Origin: Zygaena filipendulae
Taxonomy: Eukaryota > Arthropoda > Insecta > Lepidoptera > Zygaenidae
Reading direction: 5' to 3'
DNA: 64,000 nucleotides
NCBI GenBank assembly: GCA_907165275.2
Contig: OU015663.1
Location: 6,274,501 to 6,338,500, forward strand
The notes under the pieces are model-generated. The model was not told the DNA's origin, ran no database searches, and saw nothing but the letters and a program-made list of their open reading frames with translations. Below, one piece after another: positions 4,660-48,959 of the stretch. The position numbers and the translations under genes were made by a program. Each line of letters starts with the position of its first letter. Position 1 is the first letter of the stretch.

Positions 4660-4922
4660 CAATTTTGGTTGCACCACGAAGTTTTTAGAATATACAGGTT
4701 AGAGATTTTTCTAAAATTGGATTAAAGTAGGTAGGTACCTAACTACTTTAGTTGTCAGGCGGGGGGAGGGGAGCAATTGGCACCCACTGCCTCCCCCCGT
4801 GGATCAGCTCTTAATAACCCGTGCTAATAATAACCAAATACCTACGTATTATTTATTCTACGATGTTATCAATTTGAACTTACATTTCGATGGTCTGTAC
4901 GCGCTACGTACGATCCCGTATC

Positions 4923-5280
4923 CTCAGATCAAATAAAAACTAAAGACGGAACGTCTCGAACAAAGAAGTCAACGAAGTGAAGCCGGTTGTGTATGCATGT
5001 GGTAATAAGGAAAGTGTATGAATTTACTAAGTTTACTTACTGGTGATAAGTGATTCCATGCTGTTTTTTATTTTTTGACCGTTGACGACACAATATGGTA
5101 TTTTTTCTAACTTAATTGTTGCGTCACCTCCATTAGCGGGAGAAGCTCAAACTAAAAGGTATGGTGTCTTTTTCTTGTGAGTGTGTGCGTGTTTCTGTGT
5201 ACGTGCACGGCGTGGTGTCTTTTTCCGGGCTTCACTTGTTTGTTCTACGCGTTCCGTCTTTAGTTTTTATTTGGTCTGAG
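4923..5280. mobile_element. CTCAGA-family DNA transposon, 358 bp, 8-bp TSD
   Basis: CTCAGATCAAATAAAAACTA at the left is inverted at the right end (TAGTTTTTATTTGGTCTGAG), a 31-bp TIR with one mismatch. It is flanked on both sides by CCCGTATC (4915-4922 and 5281-5288), a perfect 8-bp target duplication. An 8-bp duplication fits hAT-, P- or Merlin-type transposases. No transposase is encoded. It sits inside the end of another MITE. Confidence 0.85.
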
Positions 5281-5378
5281 CCCGTATCTGAAAAAGTCAA
5301 ATTAATCAAATTTTTGCTTTCTAACAATGATAATAAAATAGAGTTCAAAATTTTAGATTTCACTTTTTCAGATACGGG
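5281..5378. mobile_element. 98-bp MITE, TIR CCCGTATCTGAAAAAGT
   Basis: A perfect 17-bp TIR (CCCGTATCTGAAAAAGT and its complement) bounds 98 bp. The first 8 bp of its left end are duplicated at 4915-4922 because the 358-bp element inserted there. It lies just downstream of the ZIP stop codon and so probably in the 3' UTR or flank. Confidence 0.75.
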
Positions 5379-5396
5379 ATTGTAAGTAGGGTATCG

Positions 5397-5402
5397 ATTT
5401 AA
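5397..5402 (-). promoter_or_regulatory. Candidate poly(A) signal of the ZIP gene (ATTAAA)
   Basis: The variant signal ATTAAA reads on the minus strand 90 nt beyond the ZIP stop codon. The next canonical AATAAA on that strand is at 5272-5267, inside the terminal repeat of a transposon. Either could be used; 3' RNA ends would decide. Confidence 0.35.
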
Positions 5403-5491
5403 TACTATTAATAAATAAAATATCAACACTTAATTATTGTACTTTAGGAGTTATTGGTGGAGCAAGACAGCAGCAGGACAGCGATCAGCGC

Positions 5492-5580
5492 CTAGCGGTC
5501 GTGCGAATGGCCGTGGTCTCCGCTGCCGTGCGAGTGCCCGTGGTCATCGTCCCCGTGGGAATGGCTGTGCGAGTGGCCGG
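5492..5580 (-). CDS. ZIP transporter exon 5 (His-rich C-terminus, stop)
   Basis: The acceptor is ATGTTACAG|CCGGCC. The 29 codons read GHSHSHSHGDDDHGHSHGSG and end DHGHSHDR, then TAG at 5494-5492. A His-rich C-terminal tail of this length is unusual but not unknown in the family and would be expected to bind zinc in the extracellular or lumenal space. The exon is much too short for an ORF caller and was found by following the splice phase from exon 4. Confidence 0.9.
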
Positions 5581-8500
5581 CTGTAACATTCAATTCGCGT
5601 TAAGTACGAACCTACATTCATAATTTGTATGTTGAGAAATTACAGATTCAAGGCGAGTACAAATATATCGCTTTCCTGTATGTTGTGTTTTAAGAATTAA
5701 AATATTGAAACTGAATCCGAAACTCACGAGGGTGATTCTCCGAAGCGGTTGGACTGATTTTGACGGGACTTTTACTGCTAATTAGCTGAGATTATCAGGA
5801 GTAAATTAGGCTACTGGAGTTCTTGCGAGAATTCCGAAACTCAAGCGGGTAAAACCACGGGGCACAGCTAGTATGCATACCATACATACTATAAGTTGTT
5901 ATAATAAATAAGCTAACCGTAGATACATTTAGCAAGCGTCAAGTCACATAATTATAATGTAATAAATTTGTTTTTTATTATCTTCATCATAAAGTTGAAA
6001 TTGCAGTTTTTGTTCCACGGTACTGCAAATCTTTCTCGGAATTGTTGGCGGTCATCGAGACATCATTAGTAGCAGCACAAATAAAAAACTTTCTACAGTA
6101 CACAGCATTTTTAACTGCAGAACACCGTCTCATCACCACAAAGAGCTTGCGGGTTAATGTTATGATCTAGTAAGATCATAACATTAACCCGCAATGGTAC
6201 GGGTCTTAATATATATACTATATGTATAAAGCTTGCATACCTAATGCAATGAATATATTAAAAAAAAAAAACTCACTCAGTAACTGTAATCCAAACATGA
6301 CACCGAATCCGACCAGTGCAGCCAAGAACTGCAGTATCCCCGTTCGATCGTTCTTCCAGATTTCGAAGAAGATGACATATAGCAGTGTCCCAGAAGCGAG
6401 ACCTTGCAGCACCACGGAGTATACACCGGCTGCTACGGCGCCCTGACCGCCCACCAGTACTATGCCAATCCCAATACCAAGCGGAGAGACAATGGCAAAG
6501 GTCGTTACGTAAACGACCGACAGGCAAGTTTTGGTGCGGGTGGCGATCAGTTCAACACCGATACAGAAAGCGATGACGAGCTTGTGTGCCGACACCGCCC
6601 CCAACATGTACCTAGAAAATTTAAACCTATATTAGAGGCGAGTGCTGCGCAGGTGTTGTCAGAATAATATAATAGATACCATATCACGGTAGAGATCAAA
6701 GGTAATTTAAATATAACTAAGCGACTTGCATGTCACGTTTATCACACACATTGCTTTTCTTCCCAAAATTAGCCTGCGTTTCAATTTTTTTTATGTTTTC
6801 ATGCAATATTGGATCAGTAAGTAAGTCAGGGCATCTAATTTTACATATATTTATAGTCATACCATACAGATTTTTACATTCAGGCTTAAATTTAATAAGA
6901 TACAGATAGATAGTATTAATCATAAATCACCACAAATCTCTATCTCTGTCTACCAATTTTTAAAGTCAATAAAAAAAGCTTTTTTTAAATCAGCTACTCG
7001 AACATCGATGGCTCTAGAAGCAGCAGCTTAGTATTAAGAAATAATAACATTTGTCAGGCTTACCAAACATTTGACGAAGTGGATTCCAAACCGACAGCAA
7101 GTCCTTCGAAGAGCTCATGGATGGATAAAGCGAGCACGATGAGCAGGCCACGTAGAGCGGAAGTGACGTCATCGCCCACGTTCACGGGCATGTGGCTATG
7201 GTTGTGCGAGTGGCCATGACTGTGCTCGAGATCCTGTGGTGGTTTCGATAAGCTTAATGTCGAAGGAAAAGCAAAATTCTTCCATTTTTGGAATTGGAAG
7301 AAAAGTGGATGACCAAGTAAGAAAACATTTTTTAAACTGTACGTAGGAATCCCCGCGGGAACTCCGAAACTTTACTTGGGTGAAACTGCGGGGAACAGCT
7401 TATATTTTTAAAGCTGTTTTAAGATGTTACCCACTCACTTTTTTTAAAGTATCACTGTCGGCGTGATTCGCTGTGGTGTTGGTACAGCCGTTGGTTTGTC
7501 CGCCACTCCTGCGCATACTCAAATTTCTCACTAACGGCGCGGCCGCGCCGTTTCTCTTCTCCCGGTGATGGATGTAAAGGTGCACTAACTCCTCTACCAG
7601 ATACATGATGAAGAAGCCGCAGCATGTCAGTAGAGGTGTGAGCTGAAAGTCCAGTTCACGAAGTCTCCCTGATGCTGGAATAGGAAATTTATAAAAACAT
7701 TTATTTATTACAGTTTGCAACAGTATCCACAGCCCTTAAAAATATCAAACAACACTCATAAAAAGTTGTTGATATATACCTGATAGGTATATATCATACA
7801 TTTTCTCTATTTAAGACTAATCAATTCCCCAAGGTTTCACTTGCGGTAATTTCGGAGTTCTCGTGAGAATTAAGGGATAAAAGGACCCTATGTCACTCAG
7901 GAACCAACTTTAGCTTAAGCTATCTATAAGAGAAATAATTTTTGAAATCAGTGAAATAGTTACTCAATAAGTTCAATAACTCATAAGTTTATCCATTACA
8001 AAATACAAACAAACAAATAGATAACTATACAAAAGATCTAATATTTTTTTCTTTCTAATATTAGTACCTATAGATACCTATCTACCTATAATATGTGATA
8101 CACAGTACCTACCTACTATCTGCCTTAAAAGACAAATTATAATCAATAAATAATTATTTATAAATTTATCCCATGGCGACTTTTATCTTAAAGCAACCGA
8201 TATTTATGTGGATGCAGACAAGTCCTAATCAAGTATGTTTACGTTTAGGTTTTTTTCAGTTCTCACTAACAAAACTACCATAAATTTTATTGGCATGCAA
8301 ATGACCCATTGATTTTAAAAATCAAAGCTTGAAGCAAAGGACATAATATTTTATCCTCTCATGTGAAAACGGCTGCAAAATTAATAACATAAGGTAAATA
8401 AACAACAATATTCACTGTCAAAGATATCGCGAACATTTGTCATTCATAAATAATACCTGTAATACTTAGGTACCTACCTGTACCTACAATAAGCAACTAA

Positions 8501-11500
8501 ACTAATCACAGAACTGGAGAGTTATACCTACTGGGTAATTTATTTCCCCTTATGAAAATTTATTCTATGTTTTATATGCATTTGTTTAGAACATAAATAA
8601 AAGTAAAAATGGCATTAAATAATCGCATTTATAACATTAGTTAGGATTAGGTCTCAGACGTAATAAAAAGTTTATTAATAAAGATTTTTATTTCGTCTGA
8701 GGATTAGGTACACATAGAGCGAGATTTATGCCTAAGATTCGAGTAAACGTTACATCTACCGTCCTATAGAGTATAGATATAGCCGTCATCATAAATTAAC
8801 ATAGTTCTGAGAATCGCATCAGAAGTCATGGTTCATGGTCTTGGTCTAAAGTAGCAACAGACAATATAGTCTAAAGTCAAACAACTTTGAGCGTGTTCTT
8901 TTTTTAAATTTAAGTTTTACATTTATAGCACTTCATAGATACATTTCGGAGCTCCTTCAGAAAGGAATGCGTAAATTTACATTTGGAATAATTGTTTCTG
9001 TTGTAAATGTAAAACGGAAGTTGTAATCCCATTAAACAGTTTCAACATTATAGTCACGAACACTGATAACAATGAGATCTTGAATTTAATACCAATTATT
9101 CGCGAGTACTTAGATCGAGGTATGTCGATTTGTACGTGTATTCGCAACAGTGTCTACAGAAGTTTCACATCATAAATTTAATAGACTAGCTTTTACCCCG
9201 CGGTTACATCCGCATTAATTTCGGAGTTCCTGGGGGAATTCCGGGATAAAAGTACCTACCCTATGTTCTTTTCTGTACTCCATACAACGTGTATGCAAAA
9301 TTTCATCCGTTGAGCCATGAAAACGTATTTAATACAGTTTAACTAGCATTAATTTCGTAATTCCTGTGGGAATTCTGGAATAAAAAGTACCTACCCTATG
9401 CCCTTTTCTGTGCCTTTGAAAACGTGTGCAAAATGCAATCCTATGCAAAATTTTATGATGATCGGATGAGCCGTTAAGGCGTGAAAGGGTAACAAACAAA
9501 ATCATATAATACCACTCGCTGTGCCACGCGGTTTCACCCGCGTAGTTTCGCAGATTCCGCGGGTATTCCGAGATAAAATTACTTACTACCCTATATTTTT
9601 TTCTGTAGGTAGGTACCTACCTACCCTTGACAACGTGTATAGATTAGGTAATATGCAAAATTTAATGTAGTTTCTTCCGCGTTAATTTCGGAGTTCCCGT
9701 GGGAATTCCAGGATATAAAATAATCGATGTCCTCCTCTGTATACCCCTGACAACGTGTATGCAAAATTTTGTGGTGATCGGTTGAGCTGTTTAGCCATGG
9801 AAGGGAAACAAACAAACAAACAAACTCACTTTCGCATTTATTTATTTATTTATTCAAAACAAGATAGGCTTGCAGTGTTCGCCAATTTAGGTATAATATT
9901 AAGTAAGGTCATCGGTCATCTGTTATAGGTACTGTCTATCCCATACTAACATTTGACAATTACCTATCTACTTCTAAAACATTTTCGTGCTTCTAACCTT
10001 GAGACAGGAGTAGGTAGGTAAGATGTGGGTAAGTAAGTTTGACCTTTTATTGTGTATATGTATAATATATATAATTACGTAAAGGGTCGGCCTTGGTCCG
10101 CACCGATCACTTTTTTTTAACGTATTCGGTATTCGTAGTAGGTATACGATCATAATTCATAACAAATTATTTCTATACTAGCTGTTCCCCGCGGTTTCAC
10201 CCGCGGTAATTACGGAGTTCCCGTAGGAATTCCAGGATAAATGTAGGTAGGTACCCTTCAACGGGTACCAATGCAAAATTTAATGCAACTTTACCAGCGC
10301 AGCGTTAATTTCGTAGTTCTTCCGGGAATTCCGGGCCAAAAAGTACCTACCCTATGTCCTTCTCTGTACCCTCTGACAACGTGTGTGCAAAATTTCATGA
10401 TGATTGGTTAAGTCGTTAAGGCGTGACACCGTAACAACCAAACAAATAAACTCACTTTTGCATTTATTATAGACTAGCTGTCCAGCTCGGTTTCATCCGC
10501 GATAAAATCCGGAGTTATCCGAAATATAGCCTATATTACTTATCAAATCTTTCCTCTTTATAATATTAGTAGGTATAGATACCTAATAGTAAAGATATTC
10601 GTACCTCCAAATATCGGTATGTTGTTATTTTTAGCTTTTTAGTATAGTGCATTTTAGTGTTTTTGGAAGTCGGTTTTAATTTTTTTGTTAAAATTTTTAT
10701 AATGATAACAATTCTTAAAAGATATTATTTTTTAGGAAACGTCTAATTAATATTCTTTATTGCTCTCATATCTGTATCTACCTATACCAATATTATAAAG
10801 AGAAAAGTTTTGATTAGTTTATGTTTGTAAAGCATAAACTCAAAAACTAATAATTAATTCTTTTACTTATGGGAAGCTACAGTGTTCCTGAGTGACATCA
10901 GTTCCACAGGGTACTTCTTATCCCGGATTTCCTTAAACAGGGCAAAGAACCTATTGAATGGAGCAAAAAAGCAGAGGAAGCTTTGAACAAGCTCAAAGAT
11001 GCCCTTATTTCTTCTCCTGTAATGATACGTCCAGATTTTAAGCTTCCTTTTAGTCTTTCTAGTCCTTTTTAGTCTACATTGTAACGCTTCGGCCGTCGGT
11101 TTGGGTTCCGTTTTGACTCAAACAGTCGATGGGGCCGAACGACCTGTTGCGCTAGGATGCGCAACATGATATGTTTATCGAACGAAAGATAAAATTGTCG
11201 ACACGACAAATATTTGTGGGCGTCCAAGCAAAAAAGTGCATTAATGAGGTATTGAGTTAAGACTAGATTCGGTTAAACATTTTTTACCACTGGTAGACAA
11301 AACGATATATTATGTCGACGAGAATCGATAAAATGGCTCGATAAAATTTTATCATGTTGTGCATCCTAGCTCCGCTGTTCGGCTAGCTCAAATAAAGGTT
11401 TATCTTAGTAATTTTTAATCCATTTATTTTACAAGAAAAAAGATTCAATTTCATTCGTACAAATCTTTAGATATCACCCTAACAATCCTCTCTCCATCTT

Positions 11501-14500
11501 TTGACACCTCTCTTTCAAAAAAAAAAAAAATGATATACCAAAAGAAAAAATATTAAAAAAGGTTGGTAATGTAGCAGAATGCTACACTAGTTACTAATAT
11601 TATAAAGCTGAAGAGTTGTTTGTTTGGTTGAACGCGCTAATCTCAGGAACTACTGGTTCAAATTGAAAAAAAAAATTGTGTTGGTTATTCCATTTGTCGA
11701 GGAAGACTATACATATAGACTACTATACATATAACATCACGCTACGACTAATAGGAGAGGACCATGAAATTAACGCGGGTGGAACCGCGGGGCACAACTA
11801 GTTACATATTATAAAGCAAATAAAAAAACATAGTAAAACTGTATATATTTTTTAAAGAACTTATTTTTCCAATGTATTTTCCTTGTATAGTAAGTAACGC
11901 ATTCACACATGACTAATTACATCGTTAAAATATTTTTACATCTGTCAAGGATACTTCACGTTGTGACTTTCTAGTTGCTTGGCAATTTAAACAAATCTGA
12001 CCGTTAGAAAAAAAAAATAGTCAATTTTATGACTTTCTAGCTTTTGCCGGCGATGAATCATGCATCGTTAATTACTTATCCCAACTAAATCGTGTGCAAC
12101 TATTGCTTGCGCGATTCCCACCGGATCTCCGAATTTCACGTTGTCAGGGGTAAACAATGACATTATAAGTATTATAGGAGGTAAAAAGAACGTGATCCAT
12201 GATGTACGTGTTAAATAAATGTAACCTTTTGTTTTTCCAAATAAACGAATAAATAAATAAACTAAATAACTAAAATTAAGCAGGGAACAGCTAGAAATAT
12301 AGAAAAATTTAATGATGTTTCTCCATCTTAGGTTATATGATACAAGTTCGCTTAGTTTAGAACCCAGGCTATCAACTTATTCCTATTCTGCCTCTGAATT
12401 ATATAGTGTACTAGTTGTCCCCCGCGATTTCATCCGCGGTAATTTCGGAGTTCCCGCGGAGGTTGCGGGAAAAAAGTACTCTATGTCCTTCAGTTCCCGA
12501 GGGAATTCCGGGATAAAAACTATCCTATCTTTTAAGTTGGACCATATTATAAATGGTTGCAAAATTTTATCAAAATCCGTTTAGTAGTTTTGGAGTCCAT
12601 CGCGGACAAACAACGTGACACGTGATTTATATATATTGGATGTTGCCATCACTGTACATTTTGGTAAGTATAGGTTACGAACCGTTTACCTAATAAACGC
12701 ATTTTAATTTTTTTTCATTTTCATCTACAGGTACTAGCCGTCCCCCGCGGTTTCATCCGCGGTAATTTCGGAGTTACCATGGGAATTTCGGGATAAAGAA
12801 AGGATACCTTTTCTTGTGAAGTTTCTTTCTGAGTTTGTGAAGTTGTAATTGGTAATCTCTGGATCTACTGAACCGATTTTGAAAATTCTTTCACTTATAG
12901 GAAGCTATAGTGATCCTGAGTGTCTTAGAGTACTTTTTAACCCATAATTCCCGCGGGAACTCCAGAGTTTGTGAGTTTGTGACGTTGTAAGGGTAATCTC
13001 TGGATCTGCTCAACCGATTTTGTTAGTTATTTTACTTATAGCTACAGTGATCCTGAGAGACAAAGAGTACTTTTTATTTACTGCGGGTGAAACCGCAGGG
13101 GACAGCTAGAAATTACTTATATAAAAATTAATCCCTATTTCTCTTGGTCACGGCATCACGCGTGAACGGCTGGACCAATTTCGCTAGTTCTTTTTTTGTT
13201 GTTTGTTAGTTGTTACTGTAAGGAGAAGAAGAATAAAAGAAGTTTGGAACTCCTGCGGGAATTTCGAAACTCACGCGGGTGAATCTCCGAAACTGCAAGG
13301 ACCGATTTTGACGGGACTTTCACTGCTAAATGATTACCGCCTATAAACAAACAAACTCTTTATGTAATGTTATCTACTAATGTAACTAAGTACATATACA
13401 TATAATACCTACTTATCTATTACTCGCTGGTTGCTGGTAATGACCGGGTCGCCTTTTTGTAACATTACATATTCCTGCCAGCTACGTTCTCTTCAATACT
13501 ATGTTGTTGCGAAAATAAACAAGAGCATTTTATAAAACGAGTTGCGTTCTACTTGTAAATTGGGATCTTTTGAAATAGGTATTTAATATGAAAATTAACT
13601 TTATGAATTGTATAAATTGTGCATAAAATTCAACATATTCACATTATTGTATTAATTATTTGTACAAAAAATAAAGTTCTTTTTTATATTGTAGCTTGTG
13701 AATGGGTAGGTAGATAGGTACTCGTATTGTTAATACGTATTATTATCGGTTTTATATAGATATAAAAAGTTTAATTTTTCTATACCTATTCGTTTTGTCG
13801 ACACACCTACCTACCTTATCAGTCTACAATCTCACCTGGTAGTAAACAGAAACTTAATTTACCTACTAGCTCCAGATTAATAGTATAGTCTATAGGTATA
13901 ATTATACAGTAAAAGCTATAGTATTACAGCTGATGTATAAGTAAATATAAATATATAATAACTTAGTGTACTTAATAACTTAAGTAGGTCTTGCATTCGT
14001 AATGAATTATCCATTCGAAAGTTATCCTCGGGAGAAAGACTACTTTCACCCCTAGGATAACAATGTACTATTTTTCTTCATTATCCTCAAAGACCTCCCG
14101 TACCTACTCAATAAAAAAGAAAATTCCTCAGGCTGTCCCACAATTCATGCGTGCGAGTGAAACCGCTAGTCTTCTACGCATAAATATAAAATTACGAGTA
14201 AGTAGGTACAATGATTATGGTTGTAATTACATATGTAAATTACATGAAGTTAATATGTAAATTGTAAATACCTACTTAATATCTGATGGCACAAACCCTG
14301 GACCAAACCACTGGATCTAGAATCATGAAATATTGTTTACCCCTAAAATTTGTTACCGTTATTTTTGAAGAAACATGTACGTACGATTCTTTCATGTTTT
14401 TTGGTAGGTAATCAAATCTCAATATTTAATTCGATTTGAATTACTTATAATACTTAGTTTTTTTATCCTTTTATTTATTTATTTATTTATAACACAAAAA

Positions 14501-17500: not shown

Positions 17501-20500
17501 GCTTTAACATAATAATTATTCTGATAAAGATAGTAAAGGAGTTAGGTGACAAGGTAACATTAAAGTAGTAATGCACCGTTATGTCCTAAATCCGAATATA
17601 GTAGGAATGCTCAGCACATATTTGTGACTTGAGCATGATAAGCATGCAGGATTGTACGCACATTGTGACCGTCGTTATTTATGCTAAAGTTGAAACAAAT
17701 ACCTACCTACTTAGGTCCGGCGGCGCCCACTGAGCGGACGACATGGCATCATATTTTTTAACGATGAATATGGTTTTGACGCCCGGATTGGCGCAGTATG
17801 CCTACCCGCCATTCCTACCCGCTAATCAAGAGGTTCCGGATTTGACTCCCGGTGAAGTTTGACTTTGTGTGATGAACACAGGGTTCCTGCACTTATCAGT
17901 CTGGTTGCGTTTATATGTAGGTATAGGTATTTATTGTATAATACACTAGCTGTGCCCCGCGGTTTTACTCGCGTGAGTTTCGGAATTCACGCAGAAACTC
18001 CAAAGTAGCCTAATTTACTCCTAATAACATCAGCTAATTACCAGTGAAAATCCCGTCAGAATTGGTCCAACCGTTTCAGAGATTCACCCGTGTGAGTTTC
18101 GTAATTCCCACAGGATCTCTTTATTTATTTGGAACCGGAACCTTTGCAGTTGCAGGCAGATCAACCCGTCAAAGTTTCATCACAATCGGACCAACGCGTA
18201 GAAGACAAACATACAAACATTCATTTTTATTTATAAAGAAGAAGATGCAGTCTCAGACGTCGTCTGAGGATGCAGTATACAATTCCACGTTGGCTTGGTT
18301 TCCACCACTCAAGAAAATGATAGTGTGGGATCAAGTTTGGATCTGTATGTTGTGAAGTGTCATTAAAAAAACAAAATTTTAACAAAAAACTTAAAACCGA
18401 CTTCAAAACACAAAATGCACTAGGTACACTAAAAAGTTAAAAATAACAAAATACCGATTTAATCCGAAAGACAAAAATGCACGTAGGTATTATTGGTAGG
18501 TACTACCTACTACCAACTAATCTGTTTGAAGTCGGTGCCAAGTTAAATAGGTAGACAGACTAGTCCGCTCCCACCACATTGCATACACGACATTTAACTA
18601 AATTTAACTTAATTAGTTAAATGTCAATTAAGATTAATTAAATTATCGTCTCTGAGTGCGACAGTTTTGTTTTTAAAATTACGTACCTAGTCATTAAAAC
18701 GACTGAGAGCGGCCGTTAATAAATAATTTGTATTATGTACCTAACTACCTACATAAAATCAAAGCACGCCACTGAATGACTGAATGTCGTATAAAATCTT
18801 TCGATGGTGCATTACAATGCCAAGATGATTCAAAATGTAGTTGACGTAGACAGTAATAATAAAATATCATAAAATTAAAAATATAATGAATGATGGTAAT
18901 AATGTTTAAAAAATACTTTCTAAGTGATGGGTTTTTTTTGAACACGTGCAATATTGTGCAATTGTGCATACCTACCTACTGTCTTTCATAACATTTTGTT
19001 AAACATCTTGACATCTAACCACTTACAACATGTTCACCTGTCTTTTATCGGGTTATACTATGCTTACTTCGGCGGTTAAGTAGATTACTTCTTTTTTATT
19101 GTTACATTAAAGCATTAGGTACGAAATATTAATATACTTATAACAACTATAGTAGGTATTTATTATGTGAAATGCGCCTGAACGGTTATGACTCCACTAA
19201 TTTCCAATGATCCATCCAAATCATATCCATATTTTGATATCTGTATAAGTGTATAAACTTTAGGACACTCTAGGTAGAGCTTATATAAACTAAAATGACG
19301 CGCCCCACTACTTTAATAGCAGTTTTAGATGTGTAGGATCATGTATCAGATAATATCTATTTAATAGTTGAGTGCGGCGACAATATTGCGCACTTGATGC
19401 GCACTTGTGATGAATAGACAGACCAGTAGGGTAATTATGTAACTTTTGTTGCTATCATATTTCAGTTTCAATCAGAAAAATAGCGATTTTGTGATTAATT
19501 AATCGTGTTTAGGCAGCTTCAGCTTTTGAAGTGTGTTTATTTTGGTTGATTGCTAGATATTGTAGGTGTCAAAACGTGCATATTGTAATCGTAAAACCTC
19601 CATATTTTTGATTGAAACCGAAAAATGATAGAAATAAAAGTTACATAATAGCCCCTCAGATTTATGTGTCGTATTCATACCCGATGGAAGGGCGCGTCAT
19701 TTTAGCTTAGATGATCTCTACATTCTAATGCATGCACCTACGACCTATGAATATATGGGAGTGAATTTTATATTTCGCGTCGCGATGGGGGCAATATGAG
19801 CATTAATATTGTCTTTCTGCAGAAAGTAGTCGATAGGTACTTTACAACTTTGTATGAACCGAGAGTAGGTAGGTGGTAGATTAAACCATTTATCTTCTGT
19901 TAAAATAAAATTGAATAAATTAATTAACACTTTAAAGAAAATTAGGATAGGTATTTACAAGCGTTTTAAAAAGAAAAAAAAATATTTTAATTTCTCAATC
20001 TTCATCATCTCGTTGCATAGAAATTGAATAATGAAGTTCCTAAAACGACATTACACAAACGATAATAAATGTAATTACTAGGTAATATAACTAAGTAGTA
20101 GCTATAAGTACAATAGAAATAATAAGAACTTGTACGTGACGTGAAGTAAGGACATTCTTAATAGAGCTATGAGTTTTTACGACTATTTTTTATTCTTATT
20201 CTAGTAGGTAAGTAGGTTCGTACAGTGTATTATTTAATTATTTTAATATATTTATGACGTAATTAGCAAGATAATATTAGCAATATAGATACCTAAGTAG
20301 GATCTTAAATATTGGTTGTTTGCTTTTATATGGTTTGCTCTCTGTGCAGTTTTTTTGATAGGTCTACATAATATGATTATTTTACATCCATATCCCGAAC
20401 TGACGAATGCAATGATGCAGTTTCAAGTACTTACTATATATACACACATGTATCTACTACAGTCTATCACAAGTACCACACTGCTGTCAGGCCTCAGCAA

Positions 20501-33509: not shown

Positions 33510-33583
33510 TTTTTTATTTTGTTTTACTAGCCCGCAATTAGTACAATGTAAGATACGCGAATGTTACAGACGGCGAGCTCGGT

Positions 33584-36654: not shown

Positions 36655-37118
36655 TAGGGCTTCCAATATTCGACTATTTTTCCTATTCGAATATTTCGAA
36701 TAGTTCTAAATCCAATATTCGAATTATTCGAATATTTCGAATTTTTCGAATAATTTCTATCTAAAGAAAAATATGTCCCTTTTAATTTTAATATAGCACA
36801 TAATTCATGGATTTTAATATTAAGCAATTAACATTCGAGTACAATATTAATGGTTCGAAATTAGAAACTGCATTTTCTAACCATTTACCACCACCAAAGG
36901 CACCAAAGACTTTTATCTAAATCATAAAACAAATATCTCTTTTAGTATTATAATGTAATTACTAAAATATCAGTATACTAATTAAATCAACTTCTAATCG
37001 ACAAAAATATTTAAAATTACCTACTCAAATTCTTCTATTATTGACACAAAATTTTATCAAATTCTCGTGTATTTTGTCAAAAGTAAGTGATATAGTACGT
37101 ACAAGCACAAGTACGTAC

Positions 37119-38092
37119 AGCAGATGATACCCAACTGTATTATTCGTTCAAGAGTGAAAACGTGCGGGAAGCAATAAACAAAATAAATAGCGATCTCCAC
37201 AAAGTTTACAATTATTCACAAGATAATTCTCTCGTCCTGAACCCCGAAAAATCTCAGTTATTAGTATTAGGAACCAAACATCAAATACAAAGGGTACGGG
37301 ACTGTCCGGAGAAAGTAAAAATTAATGGTGTCGTAGTTGATCAGGTAAAAACTGCACGTAACTTGGGACTTATTTTAGATGGAGAGCAAAAATATATAGA
37401 CCATGTAAATGAAAAAATCAGAAATGCTTTCTTCAGACTGAAAACGTTATACAAAATAAGACCCTGCTTAAACGAGGAGTTGCGACTTCTTTTGACAGAG
37501 ACACTCGTGCTCTCTCCATTCAACTACTGCAGCTCCGTCTTTGGCCCCAGGATAAACAGCAATACTGAGCGAGCTATTCAAAGGGTACAAAATGCCTGCA
37601 TTCGATTCAGTTTTAATATAAAGAGAGGGGAACATATAACCCCTTATTTGAACAAAAAGGGTATTCTGAATATGAATGCTAGAAGGGATCTCCATTATGC
37701 CTGCACTGTCCAAAGGGTGATCTGGAATGGAAAACCTGAATACCTATTTGAGAAACTTACGTGGGTGAAAGATGTAACTCATAGAACCCTGCGTTCCGCC
37801 ACACAAAATTTGATCAGGACTCAAGACCACAAATCTGCGCGCTACAGGGGATGCTTCAAATTTAATGCTGCAAAAATTTGGAACGATCTACCCCCGCCTA
37901 TGAAAAAAAAAACAGGTACAGGCACCTTTAAATTTAAGTACAAGTCAGCACTATTAAAACGACAGACTGCTGCAGAAGACCTGAAGCTACCTTACTGGAA
38001 TACTTTAAGCGTTAAAGACTTTTTTACAAGTAAATAATAAACCCTACATATAATCGTATCTGGCTAATTTTTAAACACACGCACAAACACAC

Positions 38093-38660: not shown

Positions 38661-38779
38661 TTCATTCTCATTATCAAGCAAGGGTAGATACGAGGTCGAA
38701 ATCAAGCGACGTATGTTTATTAGGTACTAGGTTAGCCATGGGCCAGCTGAAAATACTCTAAAAGAACCGTAACATCACA

Positions 38780-40235: not shown

Positions 40236-40239
40236 GACA

Positions 40240-40476
40240 TTAAGATAATATGTGGCATGAGTATATGCATATACAAATTAGACGACCTATATTTGCTAAA
40301 AGCAGTCTTTTCATAGGCCACCTAGAGGGTAGAGCGAAAGAAGGAAAGAAAGATATAGAATGTTCGGCATTTAATACATCTAACTTCTTCTTATTCAGCC
40401 TGTATCCATCCACTGCTGGATGTAGGTAGACCTTCTCATCCCATTTCCATCCGCTCCGACACCTTGTCTCTCGCAT
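40240..40476 (-). repeat. Antisense RTE-type LINE 3' end
   Basis: On minus: VYLHPAVDGYRLNKKK, from CTACATCCAGCAGTGGATGG-type DNA, the usual RTE tail. Opposite in orientation to its neighbours. Confidence 0.6.
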
Positions 40477-40739
40477 TCAGGTTATTATATAATTCATAAT
40501 TCATCTAATTATACTTACATATTATCTAATATTATTATTTATTTATAAGAATTACAGCTTAATCAACCACCACTAATTTTTGTCTAAGCGCTAATATCAC
40601 AATAGGTAGATATGTAAATACATACATATAAAAGGCTGTAGATCGTATCACTCAGCTCAGGTATAAGCTGCAGATGATCGATAAAATAATTGAAATAGGC
40701 AATATTTTTTCTTTTTTTACGTAGGATTAGTATAGTATT

Positions 40740-41265
40740 ATATTATTATCCGTAGGTGAGCAAAAAATAACGGAGATACATTAACGGCCGCACTCAGAGT
40801 CGACTTTAATGATTACTTAGTTAAGTATAGATTTTTAAAACAAAACTGCCGCAATCAGAGACGTTCAGTAAATTAATGTTAATTGGCATTTAATGAGATG
40901 TAACTTAATTAGTTAAATGCCAATTAACATTAATTTATTAAACTGGTCTTATTGCGGAAGTTTTGTTTTAAAAATCTATACTTAACTAAGTAATCATTAA
41001 AGTCGACTCTGAGTGCGGCGGTAAGGCGAAATGTCGCGTGACGTCACAAGCAGATAGGTACAGTTTTTACCTGCATCACAGATACTATACTAGCCTGCAT
41101 ATAACGTTACGAGCCCCCACTCCTAAACTATAATGCGCTTTAAGCAAGTAGGTACCTATATTTTCACTAATTTGAAAAAGCAAAAGTGTCTATTATTTTT
41201 TTATCACCTAACTGTCAGACTAAATAGAATTTAGAAAAAAAAATAGTCAAATAATGTATAAATAT
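40740..41265 (-). mobile_element. Truncated 325-bp-family copy carrying a Tourist MITE
   Basis: AAAAAATAACGGAGATACAT before and GGCGAAATGTCGCGTGACGT after the nested MITE are one interrupted copy of the 30994-31318 family. It ends near 41255 (GACTAAATAGAATTTAGAAA). Confidence 0.65.
40785..41021. mobile_element. Tourist/Harbinger-like MITE copy 1, TSD TAA
   Basis: CGGCCGCACTCAGAGTCGAC at the left is mirrored by GTCGACTCTGAGTGCGGCGG, with arms of over 70 bp (TTACTTAGTTAAGTATAGAT). TAA flanks both sides (40782-40784, 41022-41024). A 3-bp TWA duplication is the hallmark of PIF/Harbinger elements. Confidence 0.87.
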
Positions 41266-41267
41266 TC

Positions 41268-41470
41268 CTCTGGAATCACTCTGTCTATTGGTGAGAACTG
41301 CATGAAAATCCGTTCCTGGACTTTTAAGTTTATCGCGAACAGACAGACAGACAGATAGACGCGGCGGAGGACTGCTTTTAAACGAATTGTTTACTACTAA
41401 AGTTTTTATTCTGAAAATTCCGCGGGAACTCCGAAATTAACGCGGAAGAAACCGCGGAGAACACCTAGTA
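41268..41470 (+). repeat. GCGGGG-type repeat
   Basis: GGTGAGAACTGCATGAAAAT, GACAGACAGACAGATAGAC and the end GAAACCGCGGAGAACACCTAG. Confidence 0.65.
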
Positions 41471-41474
41471 TAAA

Positions 41475-42050
41475 ATATCTGCGATATGAGATTTTTTAGC
41501 GAACGGCGTTACGCAGTGTGTCGTCGTTGATCACGTTACGCAGCGTATATATGCCATAAGATAACATAAAACATCAAGCGTTCTTTAGATAAAGTATTCT
41601 TCCCCGTTTCGCTCCTTCAGAAATAATTCTTCCATGGAAACCAGTTTCGTACGCGTAATAAAAATCCGCCTTTGAAACTAGTTACGAAAACCTGGTTTTG
41701 AATTTTGATAGCGGCCAAAGCGGCTCGCTCGTTCGCATAGGTAATTCCCCTCCGTTGGAGATGGCATGCAAGTCGCGACTTGGGTTTTTTTTATTTATGA
41801 CTCCTGTGTAAATGAAAACAGGTTTCGGACCAACGAAAAATGTGGTTCGTGGGAATACCGAAATGGACGGAAATTCTCGTTGTGTAAATGCGAAATTAAA
41901 TTAGTAAATTCTTTTAAGTACAATTTTTTTCAGCTATAGTAGAGGTACCTAGATAGACGATCATTTTGGAGTGATAGAAAGTATACTTACACACTTTAAT
42001 AATAAATATATACCTACCTATCTACTGATATAAAAAAGAGGAATTATCAC
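41475..42050. other. No recognisable gene
   Basis: Mixed AT-rich DNA; nothing recognised. Confidence 0.4.
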
Positions 42051-42051
42051 C

Positions 42052-42140
42052 TAGCCAAAAGGTTGACTGGTAGAGAATACCCTAGGCATTAAGTCCGCTT
42101 TTTGTACAATAAAGTGCAATAAGGTTCTATAAATAAAGTT
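42052..42140 (+). repeat. LINE 3' tail, plus orientation
   Basis: AAAAGGTTGACTGGTAGAGA, GCATTAAGTCCGCTTTTTGT and AATAAAGTGCAATAAGG. Confidence 0.65.
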
Positions 42141-42404
42141 TTTTTGTTTGTTGGTGATCTCAGGTATGTACGACTAAATTTTTATTCCGAAACCAAAGAG
42201 AAGTAGGTATAGTAGGTATATAACCTCTACGTTTCAGAGTTCAGGGCGTTAATTATGAAAACGGGAATTGCCAGGTGTATTTATTTAGTAAAGCTTCCAA
42301 CATTGGGAGAGGACATTAGCATGCATAGCATTTCAAAATTGATGGGGTTCATACTAAATATTAATTAACAGCAAGAGGTCGATTGCGCTATTTTATAATG
42401 ACAT

Positions 42405-42835
42405 AAGCTGTTCCCCGCGGTCTCACCCGCGCCAATTTTCGGAGTTCCTGCGGGAATTCCGGAATAAAAGTACTCTATACTATAAGTGATATTGCTTTTC
42501 TTGATTTTTACGACAAAAGCTTATAACGATTAGTGTAGGATAGGTCTGTGTTGTGAAGTGTTATATGAATCCGCACTCGCCTTCTGAATCCCGGGTAAAC
42601 TTCAAGCTTTGTGGACGGTTCTCCAAAATATTAGGTAATTTACTAGCTGACCCCGCGGTAAGTTCGGAGTTCCCGCGGGAATCTCAGGATGAAATATACG
42701 TATAAACCTTCCTCTTGAATCAATATATCTATGGGTGAAAACCGCATGTAAATCAGTTCAGTAGTTTTGAGTTTTTCGCGAACAGACAGACAAATAGACA
42801 GATAGACGCGGCGGAGGACTTTGTTATATTATAAT
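42405..42835 (-). repeat. Two GCGGGG-type repeats
   Basis: AGCTGTTCCCCGCGGTCTCA at 42408 and CTAGCTGACCCCGCGGTAAG at 42643. The second runs to GATAGACGCGGCGGAGGACT. Confidence 0.65.
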
Positions 42836-42917
42836 ATAATATGTAGTAATGTAGTGTAGGAGGTTTTTGCTAAGTAACTGGATTAGAAATGGCGGCTCAT
42901 TAGGTACACTCGAATAA

Positions 42918-43353
42918 AGGTAGGTACACTTATATCTACAGAGATTGAGCGTGCCAGACACGTTCCGTCGCAGACACGTGCCACGAAAAAAATGTGAGCA
43001 AAAACCAACAGACACCGTTTATTTACAAAAGACGTCTGCACGATTCCGATGCTCTATTCACACTGCTCAACATATTGTGTCATGTAGTCACAGACACGTA
43101 GGTACAGAAATGAGCCGCGACTCGCGAGATAAAATATTCTTTCCGCGAATTCTGGTCCGTGCCTGTCGGCGTCTGCGCGACCGTATTAAAATAAATACGT
43201 TCATACGCACTGTATAGGAGAATATTATTTTGTCTGCCACGGAACGTGTCTGGAACGTTCAATGCTCAGACGAAATTTATTTCGTCATTTATTTCGTATA
43301 ACCTCAGACGAAATTTATTTCGAGGTTCAATGTCTGCAGATATAAACGGACCC
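42918..43353 (+). mobile_element. Harbinger-like TIR element copy 1, TSD TAA
   Basis: AGGT...TTATATCTACAGAGATTGAG at the left and CAATGTCTGCAGATATAA-CGGACCC at the right. TAA lies on both sides (42915-42917, 43354-43356). An inverted second copy is at 54250-54595. A 60-bp CTCAGACG element is nested near the right end. A 90-codon frame (42945-43217) contains VYLQKTSARFRCSI and SRDKIFFPRIL, also seen in the copy-2 frame. Confidence 0.82.
43265..43324. mobile_element. 60-bp CTCAGACG element, 8-bp TSD
   Basis: Starts CTCAGACGAAATTTATTTCG and ends GAAATTTATTTCGAG (right terminus eroded). GTTCAATG on both sides (43257-43264, 43325-43332). It interrupts the right TIR of the Harbinger-like element. 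Confidence 0.82.
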
Positions 43354-43427
43354 TAATAAGATACTGTAGGTACCTATACGTACCTATTGTTTAATATAAA
43401 TGTATTGTATATTTAAATACCTTTATT

Positions 43428-43520
43428 TGACGACCCGATCGGGGCCGGAGGTCACCATGCCTATATCCGCTAAGCAAGAGGTTCCAGGTTAACCCCCCCG
43501 CCCGGTGGACAGTTAATAAA
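43428..43520 (+). repeat. Degenerate tRNA-derived SINE fragment
   Basis: CCGCTAAGCAAGAGGTTCCA with a B-box-like GGTTCCAGGTTAACC matches the 17781 SINE; the A box is decayed. Confidence 0.45.
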
Positions 43521-43593
43521 ACTCAAGTCCGTAACTATATTTAGAGTAGGTATAGACGTATTGACGAGATCTGCGTTTAGGGAGCCTGTTCCC

Positions 43594-43740
43594 CAGGGTT
43601 GGCATGATTTAAACAAGTTGTTTTAAAACACGTGTTTAAAACAGTTTGAAATAAAACTATATTTTTTCAAAACACAGTTTAAAACCAATTTTAGACAAGT
43701 TTAAAACATGAAGAAAAAAAAGGGTTTAAAACTACCTACC
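43594..43740 (+). repeat. Possible hAT end (CAGGGTTGGCA)
   Basis: CAGGGTTGGCATGATTTAAA followed by repeated GTTTAAAAC motifs looks like a hAT terminus with subterminal repeats. No matching right end was found. Confidence 0.35.
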
Positions 43741-43859
43741 ATTAATTGCAAATGAATGGAAATAAATCCAAACGAATAAATATGTAGGACTCTACTTAGC
43801 TTAAAATAAATTTACAAGTTGAGACTTTGTTGTATTTTTAGGCTGGTACACTGCATAGC

Positions 43860-45825
43860 CCATAGGTAACTGCCCGCCAGTAAAGTCCCGCAGGGAAAGT
43901 CCCTATGTCGGCCGTCGAAAGAAAGTAATTCACTGGATTAGTGGCCAGTGGGTAAGTGTTCTGGTGTTCCCCGCTCTCTCTCTCTCTAGTTCTCTACCTA
44001 CCTACTACACTATAACACTACAAACAAGGTGTATGTAAAGTGTTTTGTATTGATTAATAATAATAATAATTTTTAATATTTAGATTAGAGATACCTACTG
44101 AGATACGCAACGAAAAGTAAATATTTATCGTTTTGTTTACTAATGCGAATTAGGAAACAGTTTAGAAATGGATTATTTTATTATTCACTATAATTGATTT
44201 GAAATGGGCAAGAACTCAGAAGAATAACTAAAGCTATTGTTCTGAGAGCAAGAATCAAAGATAAAATGATTTTAGAGAAAAATATATGTCAAAAGAACTC
44301 TTAATAGTCACTCAGTTTTCATCTAAACATTGTGATTAATTAGATTCATAAAATACTGCAATCGACCATGTTTACTAAAACACCAATCACAGCAAATGAC
44401 GTCACAGTCTAGTTATGCCGTGCATGTTACTTGAGACATAAGTCTAGATATTTTATGTGTTATGCATTTCGATTGATTGCTGGATCATTTAATTATAAAT
44501 CCTGGAGACAACCTAACCCAACAAAGCCGAGCTAACATGACCTAACCCAACATATTTCACAGAAACTCAATTTAATGTCAATGAGTTTCTTTGAAAAACC
44601 CAACAACCCAATCATCCCAACAACCCAACTTCAAGTGTAGGTACTGTCAATTTGGCGGTACCGAAACGTAATAGACATGATTAGCAATAAGCCCTATTGT
44701 ATAACGAAGTTTTATCTGTTTTTATCAATCAAGTCGTGGAGAATTTTCGTATGTTAGTACCTAATGAATTTTTAGGGTTCCATACCTCAAAGGAAAAATA
44801 AACCTTAATAGATTCACTTCGTTGTCCTGTCTGTCTATCTGTGGATCCTTTTTCTTAGAAACGCCTTAAGGTATCCAATTGAAATTTACATTAAAACGTC
44901 TAGAGTACTTCCTGTTGACCTATATCTAATTATGAAAGGCAAGAAGTAATGTCTCGAAACACATGTACGCCGAAAACTGTGAGTTTGTAGTTGTATCACA
45001 AAAAAGTCAAAGCCAAATAATTTTATTCAAATATTGTGGCTCGTAACCGAATGATAGTACAAATTGGCTGAAATATAGTACGATACTATATTATATGTAG
45101 TATAATAGTACGGGTGGAAAGTGGCAACCCTAACCAAAATAGACAAGATCTACCACCGTCCTGTATGTTTATTTTACTCTTTGATCTACCAGCTACCATA
45201 CCTAAAATTTTCCCGGAAACCCCGGTGCGCGAGTCCGTCTCGCACTTAGTCAGTTTTTTATCCTATACCTAAGTTAACGGACGTTATTCGCTAGACGTTA
45301 TCGTTATCGCCCGTTATTATTATCCAGCGTTTTATCAAAGAAGTCATAACGGCGGATTGAAGTTGAACAGAATAAAGATTATTATTATCTTTAAATAGGT
45401 ATATAATTCTATAGGCGGCTAGATGCTTAGTATTATCAGGTACACACTACACTGTTGCCCATGGTACGATTACTGTTGCCTACGAATGAAACAACACAAA
45501 GAGGATCATCTTAATTTTGAAAGCTAAGAAGATTACAACGGTTAATAAAAAAAAAAAATATGCGGGAAAACCTCATTGGCGTATCTAGGGTTATTTTTCA
45601 GGGTGGGCGGTCCCTGACATGCCATGACCGATGCGAAACTCTGTAGGTACTTACTAACAACAACAAGCTTCTTTGAAAAATAAATAATAATATAATACTC
45701 AGGGGCTCGCGGGTGCAAACTTTTAAATATTAAGTCTATTTTGAAGAGTCGTCTGAGTTATTTTTCACCTATTATATCATATTAGAATTTCGAATCGGTA
45801 GTCCCACACTATGGGCACTAGACCA
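43860..45825. other. No recognisable gene
   Basis: AT-rich, with repeat scraps: TTAGGGTTCCATACCTCAAA at 44774 (GAACCCTA-type family), TGGCAACCCTA at 45121 (hAT-type end) and (AAT)n at 44055. Confidence 0.45.
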
Positions 45826-45829
45826 TCCT

Positions 45830-46069
45830 GCGGAGCTAGGATGCGAACTACGATATTATGTTTATCGAACGAAAGATAAAATTGTCGACACGACAAATAT
45901 TTGTGGGCGTCCAAGCAAAAAAGTGCATTAATGAGGTATTGAGTTAAGACTAAATTCGGTTAAACATTTTTTGCTGCCATGTTACCACTGGTAGACAAAA
46001 CGATTATGTCGACGAGAATCGATAAAATGGCTCGATAAAGTTTTATCGTGTTGCGCATCCTAGCTCCGC
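45830..46069. mobile_element. TIR element GCGGAGCTAGGATGC, copy B
   Basis: GCGGAGCTAGGATGCG at the left and CGCATCCTAGCTCCGC at the right. The interior nearly matches copy A (11151-11370), with a small insertion (GCTGCCATG) near 45974. Confidence 0.83.
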
Positions 46070-46079
46070 TGGGGTGGGT

Positions 46080-46268
46080 AATTCTCGCGAGAACTCCGAA
46101 AATACTGCGGGTGAAACCGTGGGGAGATTAAAAGTTCGATTTTTTAAATTCTTTCACTTATAAGAAGCTACAGTGATCCTGAGTGACATAGGCTACTTTT
46201 TTTCCCGGAATTCCCGTGGGAACTCCGAAATTACCGCGGGTGAAGAAACCACGGGGGACAGCTAGTAA
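46080..46268 (+). repeat. GCGGGG-type repeats
   Basis: Two ends: GGTGAAACCGTGGGGAG at about 46108 and GAAGAAACCACGGGGGACAG then CTAG at 46265. Confidence 0.65.
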
Positions 46269-46304
46269 TTTATAAAGTGACAATTTATATACGTAGGTAC
46301 CTAA

Positions 46305-46510
46305 ATCGCTATAGGTGTGCCTGTAATGTTTGAAGAGTTTCCTCTATTTCTCCATGATCCCATACAAGTATACCCTATCAAATAAAAAAATAATTCCAAA
46401 TCGGTCCAGCCGTCTTTGAGTACCTAATCGCGTAACAAAAATAAAAAATAAAAACCTAGGTACAGTCGAATTGAAAACCTCCTGCTTTTTTTTGGTAGTC
46501 TGTTAAAAAT
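46305..46510 (+). repeat. Copy of the 35605-36430 repeat
   Basis: AAATCGCTATAGGTGTGCCT, CAAATCGGTCCAGCCGTCTT and GGTAGTCTGTTAAAAA. Confidence 0.7.
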
Positions 46511-46514
46511 TAAA

Positions 46515-47340
46515 TGAAAACAAACTTTATTTGTTATGACTTGTAAACAGAGTTAAGTAAATTATTTTTCACTTCAGTAGCTTAAACATGTAGGTTTTGC
46601 TGCCTGAAATCAGTGAGCAAAATGCGATTTTGCTCAGTGAGTGAGACAAAGTAACTTTTAATTTTTGTTTTCAGAAAGCCACGAATATCTTATTCAGCCT
46701 TGGGTTAATCATACAATTCGAAACATTTACACTCTATCTCTTTCCCGCCATTAGAAAGAGACAGAGACAAAGATCAACCCTTTTGAAGTTCCGATTTTGA
46801 ATTCGACCTCAAAGACAAACACGTTCGGAAATTTGTACTTTTGCAAAAAGATAATTATGTCTTTTAATGTAATTTTTTGAATTTTTACTTATTGTTGTAT
46901 TTAAACGAAAATAAGTATTTACTGCAAATAAAACTGATATTTCATCTGTAAATAACTATTATCACCTAAAGTGTTCTCGTTGCTGAAGTGAAAAGTTATG
47001 TGTATTACACGAGAGCAAAGTTTTTTGCATCTCGTGCCTTTGAATCCCTCGCCATACTCAGGATTCAAAATCAGCACTCGCAGCAAAAAACGACTTTGCT
47101 CTCTTGTTGCACAAGTAACTATTTCATACCACCTGCTCGACAATGATTCCCACCATCCTGACTTCTGCCAGCTTTAATTTCACTATCTATGAAACGTATT
47201 TAATAAGATATAATATAAAAACGATAATATAATTTAATATGTTTTTTTTTTATTACAATTTCAAAATTATTTATAAAAAAAAATCGGAGCTAACTGAGCT
47301 CGCCACCTATTTTTTCTAGTTAATATAAGTCCAGACTACA
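46515..47340. other. No recognisable gene
   Basis: AT-rich DNA. The minus frame 46919-47143 has no family signal. Confidence 0.45.
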
Positions 47341-47429
47341 TTACGTCTTGACTCTTGGTATCAACGACGATGAAATCATATACCCAAATTGCCGCCAGCT
47401 CCCTAGCTATAACGAGTACGCCACCAAGT

Positions 47430-47570
47430 ACCGAGTAACGAAACGTTACACACAATTCACAAATGCATTTCGTTACCTACTCGCACCGCCCGCACCGCGC
47501 ACGACGTTATACTTTACACGTGGTACAAGTAACGAAATGCAAATTTTGTGTGTAACGTTATACCGTACGC
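47430..47570. repeat. Inverted repeat AACG...ATGCATTTCGTTAC
   Basis: AACGTTACACACAA...AATGCATTTCGTTAC is mirrored by GTAACGAAATGCAAA...TGTGTGTAACGTTAT. The ORF at 47348-47635 simply crosses it. Confidence 0.6.
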
Positions 47571-47911
47571 AATATGCGACACGACTGTGTGATACTCTAC
47601 CTACTATGTTATCGGGTATCCAAAATAACGAGTAATTATGCTATTTTTCTTTACTTTTGCACCATCTCGACGTAAAGCAAGGCTTTACATCCCAACCCAC
47701 TGAGCAAATAATCACTACGTTTTAGTTTCACTACGTTCGTTAGAGAAGGCACTTCCATACTAATCGCTGAACCGATCTATGAAAGCATTTTGTGCCAACC
47801 ATACCAATGCGATGTATGACGCGGTCATAGTTTGGTTAAGTATTCCAAAGTTGGTAAAGAAGTTCACGCATAAATCTATAGTAACTTTTGCTTCAAGGGA
47901 GTGTCGCTGGC

Positions 47912-48182
47912 TTTTTTTTTTTTTGACCCAGGGAAAAAGGGACCCGGAGGACGACAACGCCACCTACTTAGGCCGCCTCGAACCGAACTTGCCCCCAACA
48001 AGTCGGTGAGACGGCCCCGCCCGGTGCCTCATGCCGGGCGCGGCGCCGGATGAAATCAACGGCGCCGTACTCGCCGGCATTCTGGCCCACCTCTGGGTTC
48101 CTCTTGGCTTCACCGTGGGTGGACAGTCCACGGTTACTAAGCCCCCCCGCCACGACAAGGCGGGAACCCAATTCGGGGGGGG
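47912..48182 (-). mobile_element. GC-rich poly(A) retroposon, 15-bp TSD
   Basis: On the minus strand a GC-rich 270-bp sequence ends in CCCTGGGTC plus A13. GGGAGTGTCGCTGGC flanks it on both sides (47897-47911, 48183-48197). It is therefore a TPRT insertion, 5'-truncated, with a G/C run at its 5' junction. The body reads GVGS...LSTHGEAKRNPEVGQNAG in one frame; the parent is not identified (non-LTR retrotransposon 3' end or processed RNA). Confidence 0.83.
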
Positions 48183-48199
48183 GGGAGTGTCGCTGGCCT

Positions 48200-48645
48200 G
48201 ACCCAACCTAAGGGAGGGAGGTACCTAATGTTGTATGCACGTAGTGATTACCTTCTCTCTGGTTGTATGAAACAAAGATCAAAATATTATAATCATTCAC
48301 TTGGTATGAAACTCCCAAGGGAGTTGAGTTGAGAGTGATTTGAGTTTGGAACGGTAAAATTTGTAGGAAAACTCTTAGCATTTTTTCCTTTTTATGTGAT
48401 CTACCGTGGCGTAGTGGCCAGTTCGATTTTCGAATAAACCCTGCTTGACTTGCTCTCAAAAATTCCGGTAATCATCGGGTAAAACATCGAAATACATCTC
48501 ACTAATGCATTTCAATGTAAATAACTTAAAATAAAAGGTCTTACTTGGCTGTATCGCTGTATAGACTGTAATTCCTTTACCATGACTGAAAGGGGAAAAC
48601 TTTATTAAAAACGTATTAAAAAAACTTTTCGGTGAAAGCGCGTTA
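48200..48645. other. No recognisable gene
   Basis: An A-box-like GTGGCGTAGTGG at 48408 hints at a truncated SINE, but no B box follows. Confidence 0.4.
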
Positions 48646-48654
48646 GGTAGGTAC

Positions 48655-48947
48655 CTCAGACGCACAAACTACTTACGACCACACTCAGAGTCGACTTTAA
48701 TGATTACTTAGTAAGTATAGATTTTTAAAACAAATCTGCCGCAATCAGAGACGTTCAGTAAATTAATGTTAATTGGCATTTAGTGAGATGTAACTTAATT
48801 AGTTAAATGCCAATTAATATTAATTTATTAAACTTGTCTGATTGCGGCAGTTTTGTTTTAAAAATCTATACTTAACTAAGTAATCATTAAAGTCGACTCT
48901 GAGTGCGGCGGTTAGAGATACTACACGGACTTTTTATTTCGTCTGAG
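48655..48947. mobile_element. 293-bp CTCAGACG element, 8-bp TSD
   Basis: CTCAGACG at the left, TTTTTATTTCGTCTGAG at the right, GTAGGTAC on both sides (48647-48654, 48948-48955). Most of its length is a nested Tourist-like MITE; without it and one TTA, only about 54 bp remain. Confidence 0.88.
48676..48911. mobile_element. Tourist/Harbinger-like MITE copy 2, TSD TTA
   Basis: CGACCACACTCAGAGTCGAC to GTCGACTCTGAGTGCGGCGG, TTA on both sides (48673-48675, 48912-48914). Strongly similar to 40785-41021 throughout. Confidence 0.88.
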
Positions 48948-48959
48948 GTAGGTACCTAC

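Follow-up and report, generated by a model that had tools for sequence, protein, structure and literature searches.

Five insertions in a 64,000-nucleotide window of the Zygaena filipendulae genome (the whole stretch of DNA that was analysed) raise the question of how pieces as short as 17 bp came to lie between perfect 8-bp direct repeats. It had been suggested, in a first-pass annotation of the sequence, that all five belong to one family of miniature elements (MITEs), mobilised by a hAT, P or Merlin transposase and needing very little internal sequence. We found the five insertions where they had been placed, each with an exact 8-bp target duplication (TSD) that differs from the other four, and their origin as independent transposon insertions was borne out. 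The short copies, however, are very likely scars: four of the five insertions were probably left by excision of a P-element-like transposon, and the fifth is an intact MITE. The end motif CTCAGACG/CGTCTGAG occurred 9 times in the window, compared with a mean of 0.47 and a maximum of 4 in 60 dinucleotide shuffles. As had been predicted, TSD-flanked end pairs were commoner than in shuffled sequence, with four in the window (up to two mismatches per end, perfect TSD) and none in 25 shuffles. The 60-bp copy is absent from those four because its right end is altered, reading TTTCGAG instead of CGTCTGAG.

The intact copy is a 358-bp non-autonomous MITE at 4923..5280 (TSD CCCGTATC at 4915-4922 and 5281-5288), with a 31-bp TIR, CTCAGAYCAAATAAAAACTAAAGACGGAACG, that agrees at 30 of 31 positions between its ends. 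The 49-, 17-, 60- and ~54-bp copies are joined pieces of two ends, with filler present in three of the four. The 17-bp scar at 18252..18268 (TSD GATGCAGT at 18244-18251 and 18269-18276) joins 8 nt and 9 nt from the two ends directly, without filler. In the 49-bp scar at 8653..8701 (TSD GATTAGGT at 8645-8652 and 8702-8709), the left tail is 17 nt with one mismatch (19 nt by the G variant of the end) and the right tail 17 nt, and 12 of the 15 nt of filler fall inside 6-nt words of the TIR (shuffle p 0.006), none inside 7-nt words. The 60-bp scar at 43265..43324 (TSD GTTCAATG at 43257-43264 and 43325-43332) has a 12-nt left tail, a 3-nt right tail and an interior of repeated TIR-end copies, that is, templated filler; 39 of its 45 nt lie inside 8-nt TIR words, a proportion that none of 5000 shuffles reached. 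The insertion at 48655..48947 (TSD GTAGGTAC at 48647-48654 and 48948-48955) had been taken for a single 293-bp unit and is a composite, in which a scar of ~54 bp with an 8-nt left tail and a 20-nt right tail, CTCAGACGAAATAAAAAGTC, is interrupted by a nested MITE; no TIR words were found in the filler of this scar. The nested MITE is a 235-bp hairpin unrelated to the CTCAGACG family (48677..48911, boundaries approximate; 97% identical to 40791-41022), is flanked, by eye, by TTAC/TTAG (TTAA-like), and came into the scar later than the scar itself. That hairpin family is represented in the window at 40782-41022 and 48677-48911 and by a partial copy at 18605-18679; by eye, its ends resemble CGGCCGCACTCAGAGTCGAC and its flanks TTAA.

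The surroundings of two insertions retain uninterrupted counterparts. The repeat hit by the 43265 insertion recurs at three further places in the window (54247-54409, 54543-54600 and 42930-42976; 83-89% identical), all uninterrupted and each with one diverged target copy and no duplication. The first of these (54247..54409, minus strand) serves as an empty paralogous site, 83% identical in an alignment across the joined flanks; it holds the target once, with one letter changed. The 4923 element lies inside one arm of a ~110-bp foldback whose other arm runs through intact; this foldback, at 4904-5389 with arms ATCCCGTATCTGAAAAAGT, is the host of the 358-bp MITE insertion. No empty sites for the 8653, 18252 and 48655 insertions were found within the window. 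The positions of ZIP-transporter exons on the minus strand (33204-33563, 7430-7735, 7063-7371 and 6221-6631; Pfam, the second and third matches below the cut-off, yet in order) apparently place the 8653 and 18252 scars within an intron of ~25 kb, in a ZIP zinc transporter gene that spans 6221-33563. Two further features of the window are recorded here. At 57469-57502, a 34-bp insert with ends CAATGA/TCATTG and a perfect 8-bp repeat, AGATAGAG, could have been left by an excised element of another P-like family, or could be a chance occurrence. At 37096-38034, a 313-aa open frame resembles by eye the reverse-transcriptase-like tail of a retrotransposon, and no Pfam match for it was found at 0.001.

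We searched the genome (366 Mb) with the pattern CTCAGACG N0-30 CGTCTGAG, which allows a total length of up to 46 bp, and with the reversed pattern as control. The strict form occurred at 854 places and the control at none. TSDs at 25 of these places were perfect in 21, had one mismatch in 2 and were unmatched in 2, and one of the latter pair showed a perfect TSD once a longer right end was taken. The other, a scar-like junction at L033:4672 with flanks that differ at 7 positions as an 8-bp repeat, could be a join of two different breaks, or a diverged or rearranged site. Read letter by letter, 50 of the 854 places gave 44 distinct strings. Two tails of at most 20 nt explained 37 of the 50 fully, and the other 13 carried 3-11 nt of filler; the longer tail was exactly 20 nt in 14 and 19 nt in 12. 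Three more TSD-flanked scars that depart from the strict pattern were found in 200 kb (L030-L049, regions chosen around scars), and only one of the four window scars fits it, so 854 is a lower bound; on these small samples the true number could possibly lie in the thousands. IMG/VR contigs held 25 stretches that match CTCAGACGNAATAAAAA exactly, none with a second end and matching TSD, and these were set aside as chance; the two-ended form had no matches in prokaryote genome contigs.

Intact elements are far larger than the short copies. Of 932 genomic ends matching over 20 nt, the first 100 listed comprised 36 that formed 18 inward-facing pairs, spanning 566-1942 bp, and 64 that were unpaired; no neighbouring ends in outward or same-direction arrangement lay within 5 kb. 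Five of these parents (0.6-1.9 kb) were fetched; in all five the TSDs were perfect and the inverted ends measured 49-57 bp, with 89-94% identity overall and 0-2 mismatches in the first 35 nt. The parental TIR has the form CTCAGACGAAATAAAAA[G/C]TCAAGACGG..., a subterminal AAGTGAAGCC site is found at most ends of intact elements, and AAGTGAAGCCG was in place at 8 of 10 parental ends, being altered at one L068 end and displaced at one L071 end. No transposase was detected inside the five parents (best E 0.28, three P transposases compared). The description of the four short copies as miniature elements with little need of an interior was not upheld, as the intact elements fetched measure ~350-1900 bp with TIRs of 31-54 bp, while the short copies hold nothing past about nt 20 of each end and their interiors mostly differ.

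The 358-bp MITE belongs to a sister family (CC, as opposed to the CG parents above) with ends CTCAGACC..., for which 15 copies gave a 349-bp consensus with a TIR of 31/31 and the subterminal site spaced 12 bp on both sides. A first look at the genome gave 1113 candidates, and all 40 that were scored were near full length (the window copy itself and 39 at 91-94% identity). Among the 15 copies, the window's included, TSDs were perfect in 8 and had one or two mismatches in 5, and in 2 the automatic boundary was off. Strict two-ended places of the CC family numbered only 19 (reversed control, 1). A probable older scar of a sister family lies in the window at 44215..44246 (CTCAGAAGAATAACTAAAG...TTGTTCTGAG, flanks GGCAAGAA/AGCAAGAA, TSD 7/8); this decayed, scar-like sixth case had been overlooked earlier and is weaker than the others. 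At L049:7423-7486 a CC-type scar abuts a CG-type end, as if an element had landed beside another's scar.

Which transposase, then, could have moved these elements? The genome was searched for P-type transposases, and 58 matches to the GTP-binding domain of P transposase were found, 21 of them within open frames 600 aa or longer; the same search matched none of 14 control genomes. Two loci carry proven P elements: one at L064 of 3574 bp (perfect TSD ATATTTTG, TIR 35/35 from CTTAGA, 902-aa frame) and one at L072 of 3665 bp (perfect TSD GTATTTGG, TIR 39/40 from CATAGA, 792-aa frame). Pfam matches to the RNase H, GTP-binding and HTH domains of P transposase were present in five of five frames, one RNase H C-terminal match falling just below the cut-off, and a THAP domain was matched in two of the five (L064 and L066, not L072). 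For the two frames tested, a P transposase, 6p5a, was the sole sequence match of solved structure. Among the matches listed, the closest to the L064 transposase was a Colias eurytheme protein (75% identity over 94%). Eleven of the 58 transposase loci (5-6 kb each) were fetched: none lay between CTCAGACG TIRs or qualified as an autonomous copy of this family, and at most of the 11 TSD-flanked ends of any kind could not be fixed. Two further P families of this genome are represented by transposase genes between inverted repeats at L073 701-4004 (AATACTATATAAACTC..., TSD ambiguous) and L078 683-4969 (CATAGATTTAGAAT..., TSD with 2 mismatches).

The CTCAGACG family likely belongs to the P superfamily, judging from features of its sequence. 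TIRs of ~30 bp, a feature of that superfamily, are seen in the MITE consensus (31/31; parents longer), and 8-bp TSDs in all five window insertions, all five parents and, within one mismatch, 23 of 25 genomic scars. A six-letter CWYAGA start is common to the CTCAGACG ends and the two proven P elements, which is suggestive only; the element begins with CT, not CA, and its 17-nt end has marginal similarity to the Drosophila P end (shuffle p 0.039). The unequal 9/21-bp spacing to internal transposase sites that Drosophila P has is replaced by 12/12 in the MITE consensus, so we do not file the element as a Drosophila-type P element. A 21/12 spacing in the window copy, considered as a P-like 9/21, proved to be due to a private insertion.

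The rival that survives best, at a small probability, is that the scars were left by another superfamily with 8-bp TSDs (Merlin, hAT or Zisupton) that leaves long tails. TSD length alone does not decide this, and the autonomous CTCAGACG partner is missing. However, of the three superfamilies first proposed, which included P, hAT has CAGRG-type ends, unlike the CTCAGACG ends here; P elements resident in the same genome bear 8-bp TSDs and related ends of the CWYAGA form; and a long TIR tail is called unusual, and particular to P, in PMC7776569.

A probable position of the cut emerged from a comparison of ends. Genome-wide, 1811, 932, 465, 440 and 406 ends matched the parental TIR over 17, 20, 22, 24 and 28 nt, respectively: half of the matching ends drop out from nt 20 to nt 22, and 13% over the following six nt. 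In the first 100 listed 20-nt ends, the match continued to nt 24 in 33 of 36 paired ends compared with 11 of 64 unpaired ones. Of 14 scar tails reaching nt 20, 13 ran directly into the opposite tail and one did so with one mismatch. Beyond nt 20, AAG followed in none of these 14 tails, compared with 9 of 10 parental ends (CAG at the tenth). Read by eye, two scars (L042:764 and L072:4949) have just one 20-nt tail, which runs into a trimmed TSD. A 17-nt tail was our first idea, and was replaced by 20 nt after genome scars were compared with intact parents. The step would be explained most simply by cleavage 20 nt in from the end of the element. The 406-440 ends matching over 24-28 nt correspond to ~200-220 intact elements; set against 854 strict scars this gives about four scars per intact copy, the two counts being of unequal matching stringency. 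In the CTTAGA family (CTTAGATAAAT) short two-ended places numbered 10 (reversed control 0), of which 9 could be read as joined-tail strings, 6 without filler, with tails reaching 28-29 nt, or 33 nt if one mismatch is allowed, so the cut is not generally fixed at 20 nt. The CATAGA family (CATAGATTTA) had 33 such places, as a pattern count alone (reversed control 0).

We are confident that a P-superfamily transposon, in excising from the chromosome, left the short CTCAGACG...CGTCTGAG insertions behind as scars, and propose the following course. A non-autonomous element of 0.6-1.9 kb inserts with duplication of 8 bp, as its TSDs attest. A P-type transposase would cut the transferred strand at the outer edge of the element and the other strand ~20 nt inside the TIR, and with this stagger either side of the gap in the donor chromosome would retain at most 20 nt of TIR as a tail. 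Long tails at the donor would agree with a P-type staggered cut, at 20 nt here and 17 in Drosophila. By analogy, end joining may then trim and rejoin the tails, short stretches of which would sometimes be copied as filler in a polymerase-theta-like manner. The expected product, two tails of up to 20 nt each that meet at a junction or enclose filler, with a TSD outside either tail, has the layout that the scars display. The 358-bp copy, from the sister MITE family, has not been excised.

It is improbable that the short copies derive from the same element by internal deletion, through abortive homologous gap repair. That route is described for P elements (PMC2895639), and the 566-bp (L070) and 833-bp (L069) copies could be such derivatives, but it should leave tails ending across tens to hundreds of nt, and a step at nt 20 was found instead. 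On this point the end counts weigh more than the two-ended pattern, as the pattern is capped at 46 bp and the end counts are not. Still less credible are mobile micro-MITEs that need just the 8-17 bp of their ends: the short copies do have their own 8-bp TSDs and ends in common, but the 50 strings read include 44 distinct ones and are mostly tail junctions, and the TIR past about nt 20 is gone together with the subterminal site, which is in place at 8 of 10 parental ends. Hardly any weight attaches to hairpin collapse, in which palindromes are made by deletion between inverted-repeat arms, for although a hairpin MITE family has 21 such places, in the parents fetched here ~50-bp TIRs enclose 0.5-1.8 kb of other sequence, the places number 854, and neither scars with a single tail nor a step at nt 20 would be expected. 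The 21 places come from our negative control, an unrelated hairpin MITE without P features (reversed control 0), so counts of a few tens (19, 10 and 33 above) are by themselves no proof of excision.

Short palindromes with perfect TSDs readily enter catalogues as tiny MITEs; most of those here resemble dead scars. On balance we favour the broader view that natural germline break repairs, hundreds to thousands of them, are archived in readable form in this genome, each made after a P-type transposase had placed its second cut 20 nt inward of the end (17 in Drosophila, with up to ~28-29 hinted at in a second family here), and that in this family end-joined scars outnumber intact copies by about 4 to 1. 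Should this be true, cut position and repair pathway could be read from sequence alone, and the scars would suggest where the enzyme cuts without biochemistry. As every scar records a single repair event at a defined break, one genome supplies natural replicates for the study of germline end joining in an insect other than Drosophila. The scar reading also predicts that the length of the stagger varies among P-type transposases.

Compared with known systems, the 20-nt tail and the natural number of scars are the unusual points, and among the open-licence titles listed we found no report of natural P scars in Lepidoptera. Lepidopteran THAP9-like proteins (Plutella, Chilo and Heliothis) were similar to the L064 transposase among the matches listed, and its relatives in this order are annotated as hypothetical, unnamed or THAP9. 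Zebrafish Pdre2/THAP9, as described in PMC10983969, likewise has an 8-bp TSD and a P-type transposase, but its 13-bp TIR starts from CATACC and its subterminal layout is unlike that seen here. The P-MITEs of Anopheles gambiae resemble the present elements in being non-autonomous, with TIRs of ~30 bp, an 8-bp TSD and centres unrelated to the transposase gene; by the account in PMC1562414 their ends match identified P subfamilies, whereas here the CTCAGACG partner was not found and scars outnumber intact copies. The Drosophila P transposase makes a 17-nt stagger, with tails of that length, and its element has an 8-bp TSD and a 31-bp TIR (PMC7776569). At P{wa} excision junctions from Rad51-lacking flies, tabulated in Tables 1-3 of PMC2895639, both 8-bp TSDs are usually kept with partial TIR tails of up to 17 nt, and the junctions have short microhomology or templated inserts of TIR pieces. 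The scars described here have the same layout, but the P{wa} tails of at most 17 nt arose in laboratory flies, whereas tails of up to 20 nt have here accumulated in a natural genome.
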